DNA of 64,000 bases, from assembly GCF_003065425.1 (NCBI RefSeq), contig NZ_CP026949.1, forward strand, positions 620,001-684,000. The letters run 5' to 3'. Position numbers and translations under genes: made by a program. A model generated the notes under the pieces. It was given only the letters and a program-made list of their open reading frames with translations, searched no databases and was not told where the DNA came from. The stretch is from Mycetocola zhujimingii (GTDB lineage Bacteria > Actinomycetota > Actinomycetes > Actinomycetales > Microbacteriaceae). Below are positions 33,619 to 37,692 of this stretch, piece after piece; the first letter of the stretch is position 1; each line of letters starts with the position of its first letter.

Positions 33619-33942
33619 CTACGCGGACGGCTCCGGCTTGGCCGCGGTTGCCGGCGGCTCGGGAACAATTTCGAGCCCCGACACGGAGTTCGACGACCGG
33701 ACGAGCGCCTGCACCCATGCCGGGTTGATGATCGGGCTCTTGCCGCCGTAGTACTGGAAGGTCAGCGAAATCGCCGAGTGGATCCAGATCGTGGTGCGGC
33801 CAAGACCGTTGGCCTTCTCGCTCCAGGTGAAGGCAAACGATTCACCGCGGCGCAGCTTGGCAAGCATGACGATCTGCAGGTGGGAGAGGATACGATCGTC
33901 GATCGATGCTGTCACTTTTGAGTCGTAAGTGAGCGTTCCCAC
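33619..33942 (-). CDS. DUF7882-like protein of unknown function (107 aa)
   Basis: The 107-residue protein contains DDRILSHLQIVMLAKLRRGE followed by SFAFTW, then GLGRTTIWIHSAISLTFQYY. This matches a family I recall as common in Microbacteriaceae, sometimes mislabelled as ATP-dependent DNA ligase. It has no ligase motif, signal or membrane segment. The GTG start at 33942 has GGAGG at 9 bases. Function unknown. Confidence 0.75.
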   Translation of the reverse strand: MGTLTYDSKVTASIDDRILSHLQIVMLAKLRRGESFAFTWSEKANGLGRTTIWIHSAISLTFQYYGGKSPIINPAWVQALVRSSNSVSGLEIVPEPPATAAKPEPSA

Positions 33943-34073
33943 CGGGCGGACCTCCGTATTTACTCTGTCGCCTCTCGGGGTCTCCGACAGGGCTTCTTGA
34001 TTCTAGGGCTGCGCACCGCCGATACCGGAATCGGCCACGCGCCCGGACGGGGACTTGACAGCGTTCCTGTCGG

Positions 34074-35504
34074 TCACACAGTGACGACGGTCACCCGGTC
34101 CTTGCCCGCGTTCTTCGACTGGTACATCGCGGCGTCCGCCAGTTTCAGGATGCCGTCTGTCGTGACCTCCGATTGAGCGTCAGGTGCGAGGAGCGCGACG
34201 CCGACGGAAGCAGACACCGGGAACTCGTCGGGAACGTCGATGAGCGGTTCTTTCACCGCGGCGCGGATCCTGTCGGTGACGTGGCCGACGGCATCCGCGT
34301 CTGTGTCTTCGCAGACGATCACGAACTCGTCGCCGCCGTACCTGGCGATGGTGTCGTTGGTTCGGACTGAGGTTTTAAGGCGCTCGCCGATCTGCCGCAG
34401 AACCTCGTCGCCGATGGCGTGGCCGCAATTGTCGTTGACAACTTTGAACCCGTCGAGATCAAGGAAAACGACGGCGAGGGGACGTCCGCTCCTGGTCGCT
34501 GTCGCGAGTGCCTGCGTCAGCCTGACCTGCAGCACCTTGCGGTTCCCGAGGCCGGTGAGCTGATCGCACAACGCCATCCTCGCCAGCTGCGCCTGCAAAC
34601 GGATGCGGCCCAGAACGTGCGCCGCCTGCCTCGCGAGCGTTGTGAAGAGTTCGACGGCCTCGTCGTCGATATCCCGTCGCCGCCCGAAGAAGCAGACGAC
34701 CGCGCCGATCGGACGTCCAGCCTCCATGAGCGGAACAGCGCTCACCGTTTCGAGACGGGCGGAACGCAGAACGGATGCCGTCTCTTCCGACCGAAGGTCT
34801 TCCTCCTCGGAGGTCGACACGGTGACGACCCTGCCGAGTTCCATCGCACGCTGCTCTGGCATGCCGGGAACATGCATCAGATGCCGGAGCGGGTGGGTGC
34901 CTGCTGCAACGGAAAGGGTCCCGGACTGGTCGGCGAAGAGAACTGCCGTGTGGGTCGCGGTGAATGCCTCGCGCGCGCTCTCGGCGAGTGCCTCGGCGAG
35001 TGCCTCCTCGGTTTCGGCGATCGTGAACGCGCTCGACGCCGACTGGAGCACCCGGATCCACGCCTCGGAGGCTTCTGCGGCGCGCCGGGCAGTAAGGAGT
35101 TCGCGCTCGTAGTCGCGACGCTCGGTCGAGTCGAAAACCGCGATCCGGACCTCGCCGGACTCGTCGGCCTGGACTCCGTTGACGAGAGTGGGCAGCGTCG
35201 ACCCGTCTGCACACAACAGGGAGAGTGCGATCTCGTCGACCCGCCCCCGCAACCGCAGCACGGGGAGGTACCGCGTCTCGTGGAAGAGTCGGCTGCCGAC
35301 GGTGAGGAGTGATTGAAAGGAGCGCCCGGTGACGTCGGCGGGCGTGAGTCCCACCATGCGAAGGAAGGTGGTGTTCGCCGCTGTGATCGTTCCATCGGCG
35401 TCAGTGACGAGGTACCCGCACGGCGCGTGTTCGAAGAGTTCCTCGAAGTCGAGCTGGCTCGCGGTCAACGCCTGGTTGGGCGCATCATCGCCGGTGATGG
35501 TCAC
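34074..35504 (-). CDS. PAS-GAF-GGDEF diguanylate cyclase
   Basis: The 476-residue protein has a PAS domain (about residues 17-130, LFEHAPCGYLVTDADGTITA and VFDSTERRDYERELL), a helical linker, a GAF domain (about 150-295) and a GGDEF domain (about 305-470). The active site RYGGDEFVIV is intact, and an RTND sequence five residues before GGDEF is the product-inhibition I-site. It should make cyclic-di-GMP. The GTG start at 35504 overlaps the stop of an RsbQ-like hydrolase gene by 4 bases. In Bacillus subtilis RsbQ partners a PAS-containing phosphatase RsbP, so here the PAS output appears to be a cyclase (inference). Confidence 0.92.
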   Translation of the reverse strand: MTITGDDAPNQALTASQLDFEELFEHAPCGYLVTDADGTITAANTTFLRMVGLTPADVTGRSFQSLLTVGSRLFHETRYLPVLRLRGRVDEIALSLLCADGSTLPTLVNGVQADESGEVRIAVFDSTERRDYERELLTARRAAEASEAWIRVLQSASSAFTIAETEEALAEALAESAREAFTATHTAVLFADQSGTLSVAAGTHPLRHLMHVPGMPEQRAMELGRVVTVSTSEEEDLRSEETASVLRSARLETVSAVPLMEAGRPIGAVVCFFGRRRDIDDEAVELFTTLARQAAHVLGRIRLQAQLARMALCDQLTGLGNRKVLQVRLTQALATATRSGRPLAVVFLDLDGFKVVNDNCGHAIGDEVLRQIGERLKTSVRTNDTIARYGGDEFVIVCEDTDADAVGHVTDRIRAAVKEPLIDVPDEFPVSASVGVALLAPDAQSEVTTDGILKLADAAMYQSKNAGKDRVTVVTV

Positions 35505-36313
35505 CGCAGGTATGCCTTGATCTGGGTGGTCAGCTCGTCGGGGGCGGAGAGGTTGGGGCAGTGCCCTGTCGCCTCGAGTACGACGAGCGTGCTTCCGGGG
35601 ATCGACCTGTGTACGTACTGTCCGACCGGGAGCGGAGCGATGATGTCCTCCTGGCACTGCAACACCAGGGTCGGCGTGGTGACGTTCGGCAGGTCGTGCC
35701 GGTTGTCGGAGAGAAAAGTCACCCGTGCAAAGTGTCCGGCGATCGTGGGATCGGTGCGGCAGAAGCTCTCGGTGAGAGATTCGCCCAACTCGGGACGTGA
35801 ACTGTGGCCCATGATGAGCGGTGCCATCGCCGCCGACCAGCCCAGGTAGTTGGCATCGAGCGCGTCGAGCAGGGAGTCGATGTCTTCCTGTTCGAAACCG
35901 CCCGTGTAGTTTTCGGTGTTGACGTAACGCGGCGACGGGCCGACGAGGACGAGTGCTCCGAAGCGCCCGGCGTCCTGCGTCGTCGCGAGAACACCGATCA
36001 TTGCGCTCACCGAGTGACCGACGAACACGACATCCGTCAGGTCGAGGTCCTCAAGAATCTCGAGAACATCGTCGGCGTACCCGTGCAGGGAGTCGTACTT
36101 ACCCGCGTCGTACGCCGAGAGGTCGCTCGCTCCGGCGCCGACATGGTCGAACCGGACGACGAGGTAGTCGTCTTCGAACTGCGGCGCTACCTGGCTCCAC
36201 ATTTCGGAGCTGCACCCGAAGCCGTGTGCAAAAACAATGGGCCGACCGGCGGGGTTTCCCGTCACCGAAACGTTGTTTCGTTTGCGGACGGGTGTCGTTG
36301 CGTCTGTAATCAT
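35501..36313 (-). CDS. RsbQ-like alpha/beta hydrolase
   Basis: The 270-residue protein resembles Bacillus subtilis RsbQ along its whole length. Shared segments include IVFAHGFGCSSEMW, RFDHVGAGASDLSAYD, VVFVGHSVSAMIGVLA, FCRTDPTIAGHFARVTFLSD and LQCQEDIIAP. The catalytic triad is S101, D223 and H251. RsbQ and its plant relatives KAI2/D14 bind a small hydrophobic ligand and signal through a partner. AGGAGCC lies 5 bases before the ATG. It overlaps the PAS-GAF-GGDEF gene, implying it feeds a signal to that PAS domain, with cyclic-di-GMP as output. Confidence 0.92.
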   Translation of the reverse strand: MITDATTPVRKRNNVSVTGNPAGRPIVFAHGFGCSSEMWSQVAPQFEDDYLVVRFDHVGAGASDLSAYDAGKYDSLHGYADDVLEILEDLDLTDVVFVGHSVSAMIGVLATTQDAGRFGALVLVGPSPRYVNTENYTGGFEQEDIDSLLDALDANYLGWSAAMAPLIMGHSSRPELGESLTESFCRTDPTIAGHFARVTFLSDNRHDLPNVTTPTLVLQCQEDIIAPLPVGQYVHRSIPGSTLVVLEATGHCPNLSAPDELTTQIKAYLR

Positions 36314-36374
36314 TTGCGGCTCCTGCTGTGCACCACTGAAATCCGAGAACCGCTCATCGGTACCGCCGTTTGGT

Positions 36375-36397
36375 GGCTCCAAAATATTAGTGGAGCC
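36375..36397. promoter_or_regulatory. Inverted repeat in the divergent RsbQ / EAL promoter region
   Basis: GGCTCCA (36375-36381) and TGGAGCC (36391-36397) flank AAATATTAG, which contains a -10-like TAATATTT on the minus strand. This is a candidate operator for the RsbQ operon, 62 bases before its start. Confidence 0.4.
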
Positions 36398-36601
36398 GGG
36401 TCGCGGCGAGCAACGCGTGTACCTTTCCGACAGAGAGGGCCCCCCACAGGCACCCCGTCGCGGATTATACGCACAAGGTGCCCGAAACGGCGAGCGTAGA
36501 TTTCGTGTGCGGGGCGTTGCACGATGAGCTATGCGATTTTGCCAGCGAACTCTTCAGGCCGCTCTCCGAACTAACGGAGCGGCGAGATCGGGCAGGCCGC
36601 A

Positions 36602-37354
36602 ATGACCCTCGAAGACGACCTCCAGGGTTCTGTCGCGAGGCACGAGATCGAGGCGTATTTCCAGCCACAGATCGACGTCGCAACCGGTGAGATCACCGCG
36701 GTCGAAGCGCTGGCACGGTGGCGGCATCCGGTGCAGGGGCTCATCCCGCCGGTTGACTTCATCCCCATTGCCGAGCGCACCGGCATCATCCACGAGATCG
36801 GTGCCTTCATGCTGGAGGAGGGAGTCCGTCACGCCGCCAGGTGGCGACGAGACGGACTCTCAATCCACGTCTCGGTGAACGTCTCCGCTGTGCAGCTCGC
36901 GACGCCCGACGTTTTCGAGCAGTTGCACGCACTCCTTGGTGAGCACCAACTGCCTAACGGCACACTCACCATCGAGATCACCGAATCGCAGGTGATCACG
37001 GATCTCGCCGATGTCGCCACCCGGCTCCACCGCCTGCGCGCGATCGGTCTCGGCGTCTCGCTCGATGACTTCGGGACCGGGCATTCATCGCTCGCCCAAA
37101 TCAGGGACCTGCCGATCACCGAACTCAAGATCGACAAGTCACTGATCCAGGAAAACACGAGCAACGGGGCACTGATCGCCGTTGCAGTGGCGCTGCTCCA
37201 GGAGCGTGGTGTGCAGGTGGTTGCCGAGGGCGTCGAGACGGCGGAACACCTCGACCTCGTGCAGCGCATTCACTGTGACCGGGCGCAGGGCTACCTCTTC
37301 GGTCGCCCCGTGCCCGTCGACGAACTGGACCCGGTCCTGGCCGGTGCGCAGTGA
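36602..37354 (+). CDS. EAL domain cyclic-di-GMP phosphodiesterase
   Basis: The 250-residue protein is a stand-alone EAL domain. Metal and substrate residues are kept: EALARW, SVNVSAVQL, IEITESQ, DDFGTGHSSL, LKIDKSL and VVAEGVET, so it should cleave cyclic-di-GMP. There is no sensor domain; control would be by expression or by a partner. It is divergent from the RsbQ / PAS-GAF-GGDEF pair, so synthesis and breakdown of the second messenger are encoded side by side. A hairpin at 36558-36583 lies in its leader just before the start, and the ribosome-binding site is weak. Confidence 0.92.
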   Translation: MTLEDDLQGSVARHEIEAYFQPQIDVATGEITAVEALARWRHPVQGLIPPVDFIPIAERTGIIHEIGAFMLEEGVRHAARWRRDGLSIHVSVNVSAVQLATPDVFEQLHALLGEHQLPNGTLTIEITESQVITDLADVATRLHRLRAIGLGVSLDDFGTGHSSLAQIRDLPITELKIDKSLIQENTSNGALIAVAVALLQERGVQVVAEGVETAEHLDLVQRIHCDRAQGYLFGRPVPVDELDPVLAGAQ

Positions 37355-37383
37355 GCGCACTGCCGCCCGGATGCCTGAGGGCG

Positions 37384-37692
37384 TCAGAGGCCGCTGAAGG
37401 AGTCGTCTTCGATCGGCACAGAGTTCTCGTTGCCGGAATCGGCTCCATTATCGCCGCCGACTTCGATCTGGCTCCACACAACGGGCATGCCGGGGGAGAA
37501 CAGAATATCCAGGCCGGGCCCACCGCGTAGCGGTGGAATGGTGACGTAGCCGCCGCCAGCCTGAATGGCCTTGAGGATCTGTGCCCTCAGCTCGGACACC
37601 GGGTCCGGAAGAAAGTAGTCACGTCCGTCGACGGTCAGCCTGTGAACAATCACTTGGTATTTCCTGTCTGTGCCTGGCGAGGACTCACCCAT
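37384..37692 (-). CDS. Protein of unknown function (102 aa)
   Basis: The product starts MGESSPGTDRKYQVIVHRLT, and GAGG lies 5 bases upstream. The middle (AQILKAIQAGGGYVTIPPLR) looks like a compact alpha/beta unit. The C-terminal 25 residues are acidic. No family recognised, no signal or membrane segment. It converges with the EAL gene, separated by 29 bases. Confidence 0.65.
   Translation of the reverse strand: MGESSPGTDRKYQVIVHRLTVDGRDYFLPDPVSELRAQILKAIQAGGGYVTIPPLRGGPGLDILFSPGMPVVWSQIEVGGDNGADSGNENSVPIEDDSFSGL

Follow-up and report, generated by a model that had tools for sequence, protein, structure and literature searches.

An RsbQ homologue paired with a predicted PAS-GAF-GGDEF diguanylate cyclase in Mycetocola zhujimingii and its conserved linkage in Microbacteriaceae

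RESULTS

An RsbQ-PAS sensor with a predicted cyclic di-GMP output

A 64,000-nt stretch of the Mycetocola zhujimingii genome (contig NZ_CP026949.1, positions 620,001 to 684,000; hereafter, the window) carries an RsbQ homologue encoded immediately upstream of a PAS-GAF-GGDEF protein, a predicted diguanylate cyclase, and divergently from a stand-alone predicted EAL phosphodiesterase. We interpret this locus, with a probability of about 0.72, as the form that the known two-part RsbQ-PAS sensor takes in Microbacteriaceae, cyclic di-GMP (c-di-GMP) being its output. Linkage of rsbQ to PAS-GGDEF genes lies far beyond chance in the family. The first-pass annotation of this DNA had proposed that RsbQ and its PAS partner may control c-di-GMP synthesis in place of a phosphatase. 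That proposal is favored by the gene linkage, by intact motifs at the active sites, and by a PAS domain with an RsbP-type signature, but control of a cyclase by RsbQ had been put forward before: such pairs were already reported in 2011. In their main text, Nadezhdin, Brody and Price described 45 adjacent pairs of RsbQ and an RsbP-type PAS with PPM phosphatase, histidine kinase, or diguanylate cyclase outputs, the last occurring in both Gram lineages and carrying a C-terminal phosphodiesterase domain in three cases (PMC3183031). The coupling of this module to GGDEF proteins was restated in 2025 (PMC12143880). Three aspects are new here: most partners in one family have an architecture that includes GAF, a phosphodiesterase is paired with the module, and near-minimal c-di-GMP networks are built around the locus.

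The rsbQ homologue (35501-36313, minus strand; ATG at 36313, stop at 35501-35503) encodes a 270-aa alpha/beta hydrolase with the triad S101-D223-H251 and a four-helix lid (about residues 142-200). The closest solved structure by sequence is Bacillus subtilis RsbQ (1wom; E = 9.4e-85); the protein combines a Ser-His-Asp triad with a lidded alpha/beta-hydrolase fold nearest RsbQ, a fold that resembles the KAI2/D14 receptors. The cyclase gene (34074-35504, minus strand; 476 aa) most likely starts with the GTG at 35504, and the resulting GTGA (35501-35504) overlaps the rsbQ stop by 4 bp. Its PAS, GAF, and GGDEF domains each score above the Pfam cut-offs. The RsbP-type PAS (35124-35447, about residues 20-127) is the most N-terminal of them, with a PAS_9 match at residues 29-125 of a 477-residue version of the protein, which has one extra N-terminal codon and numbers one above those of the 476-aa protein. 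The PAS-GAF signaling helix (35019-35126), the GAF domain (34611-35015; GAF_2, E = 4.2e-12), and the GGDEF domain (34095-34574; E = 3.1e-43) follow on the same strand. The active-site motif of the latter is intact and is preceded, five residues upstream, by an RxxD inhibitory site (RTND): RTNDTIARYGGDEF. An AlphaFold2 model of the cyclase (predicted local distance difference test, 93.2; predicted TM-score, 0.71) shows, in 477-residue numbering, a normally folded PAS domain and two long helices (128-163 and 282-313) joining the domains. The divergent EAL gene (36602-37354, plus strand) encodes 250 aa with a single Pfam domain (EAL, E = 1.2e-69) and 7/7 EAL signature motifs, which hold the catalytic residues. 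The first-pass annotation is therefore borne out in its description of the full triad, the overlap of rsbQ with a PAS-GAF-GGDEF gene, the RxxD site, and a divergent EAL gene that looks active.

Reciprocal linkage of RsbQ and PAS-GGDEF in Microbacteriaceae

Searching 299 Microbacteriaceae genomes with RsbQ identified 57 places in 52 genomes scoring at least 232 bits, separated by a wide gap from other hydrolases (at most 107 bits). A complete adjacent PAS partner was found at 54 of these 57 places, and all 54 partners contain GGDEF (53 by Pfam and L123 by phmmer plus motif). At the remaining three, the partner is cut by the contig end after the PAS domain (L122), RsbQ itself is cut at a contig end (L159), or a PAS partner is lacking (L165). 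The reverse search of the same genomes with the PAS domain plus linker (E <= 1e-8) returned 58 matches, 55 of them beside RsbQ and three not. The linkage in relatives on which the first-pass annotation had made its proposal depend is thus present in both directions.

The family set used for architectures and outputs comprises 53 partners; it leaves out L122, L123, L159, and L165, as well as the named loci L005-L011 and L013 (L005-L007 repeat L115, L116, and L118). Pfam assigned GAF_2 to 44/53 partners and EAL to 8/53, and the four-base overlap with rsbQ occurs in 42/53 when start codons are chosen by rule. GG[DE]EF is intact in 45/53 partners, i.e., 43/45 non-fused and 2/8 of those fused to EAL, and is accompanied by the RxxD site in 43/53. 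GG[DE]EF is missing from six of the eight fused PAS-GGDEF-EAL partners (L160, L161, L162, L166, L167, and L168), and none of the eight has fewer than six of the seven EAL motifs. This combination of degenerate GGDEF and retained EAL motifs suggests that the sign of the output may be reversed in the fused branch, with RsbQ governing c-di-GMP breakdown rather than synthesis.

Phosphodiesterase genes also follow RsbQ. EAL is present in 48/52 RsbQ genomes versus 10/28 hand-picked RsbQ-less controls (Fisher p = 1.4e-7, uncorrected for relatedness), and it lies within 5 kb of RsbQ in 34/52 genomes, as a separate gene in 26 and within the fused partner in 8, where about 0.3 EAL genes would be expected by chance. 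Of the 57 places, 21 have a divergent EAL gene upstream of rsbQ, as in the window. Beyond the family, 3/72 named loci show an EAL open reading frame, or ORF (L024, L048, and L059; flanks of up to 6 kb).

The PAS domain and linker helix carry most of the RsbP-type signature

The RsbP class is characterized by nine residues, which in B. subtilis are C10, L13, L48, Q53, F55, C56, Y59, E72, and P86 (PMC3183031, main text), or by the corresponding class consensus. We mapped these nine positions through the motif description in that paper and a constant offset of 19, rather than by alignment to the RsbP sequence. C29, L32, L67, F74, E91, and P105 of the window PAS match, as does P81, and R72, in place of Q53, is basic and was taken to correspond to class letter b. 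F74 corresponds to F55 in the F-alpha helix, whose change to alanine inhibits RsbQ binding in B. subtilis (PMC3183031). Members of the RsbQ-PAS class are further described as lacking a DIT motif after the PAS domain and, for the most part, as having a helical, potentially coiled-coil linker of at least 21 residues (PMC3183031). The window protein reads DST instead of DIT and continues into a single predicted helix (128-163 in 477-residue numbering). R129 and E133 of this helix are each retained in 133/134 partners across all three output classes, to which L136 is likewise common. Conservation of R129 and E133 agrees with a published AlphaFold2 model in which two RsbP molecules assemble with two of RsbQ and RsbQ sits at a joint PAS-linker surface (PMC12143880). 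A search for natural RsbQ-PAS fusions among 136 loci plus the window retrieved no ORF with both matches.

On the RsbQ side, the triad Asp and His are invariant in 146/146 compared proteins and the Ser is kept in 145/146; in the L150 protein (G122:C5), the catalytic Ser is replaced by Cys, and that genome carries a second RsbQ. The same majority residue (>=80%) is shared by all three output classes at 79/262 RsbQ positions, triad included, and the input side therefore looks alike while outputs differ.

Outputs differ among lineages

Elsewhere in Actinomycetota, 39/43 partners are SpoIIE/PPM phosphatases, two are GGDEF proteins, and two are kinases. The two GGDEF exceptions are L221 and L224, the latter adjoining a doubtful RsbQ of 35% identity. 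Outside the phylum, Pfam identified a kinase in 38/38 partners. These counts place L081 (Nocardioides), once assigned to both groups, within Actinomycetota, and exclude L025 and L043 (partner ORF not found), L026 and L209 (wrong frame), L222 (PAS partner not found), and 12 Bacteroidota loci with a non-PAS neighbor. In related families of the same order, 24 loci comprise 15 PPM, five PAS-GGDEF-EAL, and three kinase partners and one left unresolved, with labels derived from phmmer on short flanks and 27 new loci drawn from 55 listed places. Among all loci surveyed, L235, L236, and L238 included, the PAS-GAF-GGDEF architecture is confined to Microbacteriaceae.

In an unrooted FastTree phylogeny of 172 RsbQs, the 49 Microbacteriaceae proteins whose cyclase is not fused come together as one starred group (99). 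The RsbQs of the 46 non-fused partners among the 54 complete ones likewise cluster with each other. Output labels require eight changes on this tree versus 93 when shuffled. A single clade for all c-di-GMP outputs was considered and dropped: merging the GGDEF and GGDEF-EAL labels still leaves eight changes, and the fused and non-fused branches therefore stay apart. The tree carries a long-branch warning for the joining of L221 and L223. From these placements, RsbQ seems to have acquired a c-di-GMP output on more than one occasion.

In 12 loci of Pontibacter, Rufibacter, and Adhaeribacter, RsbQ has a non-PAS neighbor. A shared gene family encoding about 150 residues adjoins rsbQ in 10/12, directly downstream (L033, L036, L039, L046, L050, L053, L054, L066, L070, and L080). 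Its members gave no match in Pfam (two members searched) or NCBIfam (three members), and we take them to resemble a STAS/SEC14-type protein. The family may represent a new RsbQ partner.

The c-di-GMP complement of RsbQ genomes

No EAL match other than the window gene occurs in the M. zhujimingii genome, and HD-GYP gave no match there, the one survey genome that this search covered. GGDEF matched four proteins of this genome: the window cyclase, one bacteriophytochrome, and two weak tandem ones. The bacteriophytochrome (PAS_2-GAF-PHY-GGDEF; L227, G000:C1:145795-146259) is the only other cyclase with an intact GGDEF motif; the tandem proteins (L226, G000:C1:557162 and 558315) lack GG[DE]EF. Among 26 RsbQ genomes with a single EAL gene, that gene is at the RsbQ locus in 19. 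In six assemblies, the RsbQ locus holds the only GGDEF and the only EAL (G021, G039, G076, G103, G261, and G298); of these, G039 (83%) and G298 (63%) are incomplete and G261 has 6% contamination. G113 and G245, whose cyclases are cut at contig ends, were left out of this count.

The intergenic region and flanking genes

The first-pass annotation had also described an inverted repeat between rsbQ and the EAL gene. Its arms measure 8 to 10 nt and are spaced by 97 to 162 nt, and we rejected it as an operator because the longest perfect arm (8 nt) was equalled in 32/60 dinucleotide shuffles. The same region contains a ATTATACGCACA box (36464-36475, plus strand), which is exact in 6/6 sampled genomes of the genus and occurs once in the window with one mismatch allowed, making it a possible promoter or operator. 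A scan of positions 33900-37450 yielded no sigma-70-type promoters. The locus is flanked by a gene for a DUF7882 protein (33619-33942, minus strand; E = 1.5e-34) and, beyond the EAL gene and opposite to it, by a 102-residue ORF (37384-37692, minus strand) with no Pfam match.

DISCUSSION

In the mechanism that we infer, the lidded serine-hydrolase pocket of RsbQ would bind a small molecule, probably a hydrophobic one, and the ligand-bound protein would dock on the PAS F-alpha helix and on the initial turns of the linker helix. Docking would alter the packing of the PAS-to-GAF helix and of the second, GAF-to-GGDEF helix, setting cyclase activity with whichever sign the switch has. Product inhibition at the RxxD site would cap c-di-GMP output to a presumed downstream receptor, and the divergent EAL protein, free of sensor domains, would act as a dedicated c-di-GMP sink.

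KAI2 and D14, the karrikin and strigolactone receptors of plants, use the same Ser-His-Asp triad and have an F-box protein or a transcriptional corepressor as partner; the neighbor of the window RsbQ is instead a PAS protein. In the sigma-B energy-stress route of B. subtilis, RsbQ targets a PPM phosphatase, whereas its partner here is a GGDEF protein with an inserted GAF and with R78 at the position of Y59. The SpoIIE-type phosphatase domain (PF07228) has no match at E <= 0.001 in the genome of the window. The locus is closer to the RsbQ-PAS-cyclase pairs of 2011, with which it shares an rsbQ gene immediately upstream and an N-terminal RsbP-type PAS fused to the cyclase, and from which it differs in having a GAF between PAS and GGDEF and the EAL as a separate divergent gene (PMC3183031); the main text of that paper, figures aside, does not mention GAF. 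Control of GGDEF by RsbT and an RsbU-type domain in Moorella similarly re-uses a general-stress partner module on a cyclase via a helical linker, albeit with another partner protein and another sensor domain (PMC12143880).

Several observations weigh against the proposed RsbQ-controlled cyclase. The linkage has exceptions: of the three PAS matches lacking an adjacent RsbQ, two weaker ones are in G267, and the one in G036 (L228, G036:C2, 4989-6410) is a full PAS-GAF-GGDEF protein without RsbQ alongside. The ORF upstream of this lone cyclase has a weak GH39 match. In 18/52 genomes, RsbQ has no EAL gene at a distance of 5 kb or less, and four of these genomes have none at all. As for a c-di-GMP receptor, PilZ has no match in the genome of the window, in searches that did not include BldD. 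The sole MshEN protein, a PilB/GspE-like ATPase and possible c-di-GMP receptor (L225, 4753-6444; G000:C1:2466141), is not claimed as one here, its c-di-GMP-binding motif being not clearly kept.

The window PAS, too, departs clearly from the RsbP class at H75 and R78, which stand for C56 and Y59 of B. subtilis. His at position 75 is frequent in the PPM group (30/42), and the alanine change at Y59 is null in B. subtilis (PMC3183031). Position 78 is Arg in 47/54 Microbacteriaceae partners and His in 40/42 other actinobacterial and 32/38 other partners. RsbQ residue 37 is acidic in 36/47 pairs with PAS R78, in 0/7 Microbacteriaceae pairs without it, and in 0/80 other pairs, a covariation that amounts to about one independent event on the tree and is outranked by other column pairs when pairs are shuffled within each output class. 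We therefore treat it as a lead rather than as evidence of contact, although the opposite charges would fit a re-tuned one.

The same conservation could be read differently if RsbQ were an enzyme whose product is bound by the PAS domain; sensing would then fall to the PAS domain, which RsbQ would supply (model 1 of Nadezhdin et al.). Near-invariance of the triad (Asp and His 146/146, Ser 145/146) is what one would expect if catalysis matters, and the PAS is predicted as a normal domain, yet the KAI2/D14 relatives employ that triad as receptors. Conservation of the F-alpha helix, together with the binding defect of F55A in B. subtilis (PMC3183031), suggests a docking surface. Receptor and supplier would look the same in sequence; on balance, we hold the supplier role to be rather unlikely. 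RsbQ might also have a metabolic role as a hydrolase and be tied to the cyclase by nothing more than a common operon, the cyclase then answering to its own PAS and GAF ligands. G036, which keeps the cyclase without RsbQ alongside, would fit this, as would the open-licence literature, where we found no experiment on an RsbQ-cyclase pair. The two-way linkage, the RsbP-class signature of the PAS domain, and the direct RsbQ-PAS binding reported in B. subtilis (PMC3183031) speak against mere operon sharing and make it very improbable.

Finally, the module might mainly control c-di-GMP breakdown in the fused branch, and perhaps partly in the window, with synthesis being secondary. The degenerate GGDEF of 6/8 fused partners and the EAL motifs kept in 8/8 point that way, but the window cyclase and 43/45 non-fused partners have an intact GG[DE]EF, and the window EAL is a separate protein; we hold this reading to be improbable. 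Returning to RsbQ-controlled c-di-GMP synthesis, a bolder form of that reading makes a KAI2/D14-like receptor a main, and in some species the sole, input to c-di-GMP within this one bacterial family. The locus would then be a receptor-cyclase-phosphodiesterase island with a re-tuned contact between acidic RsbQ residue 37 and PAS R78, and its sign would be reversed in the branch with mostly dead GGDEF and intact EAL. We offer this extension tentatively, as less likely than not.

In species whose single cyclase and single phosphodiesterase are both at the RsbQ locus, a plain c-di-GMP reporter would read RsbQ activity with little background, and the Microbacteriaceae variant could thereby help to find what RsbQ senses. 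More broadly, the locus would illustrate how a single small-molecule receptor came to be connected to a phosphatase in some cases and to a kinase, cyclase, or phosphodiesterase in others.

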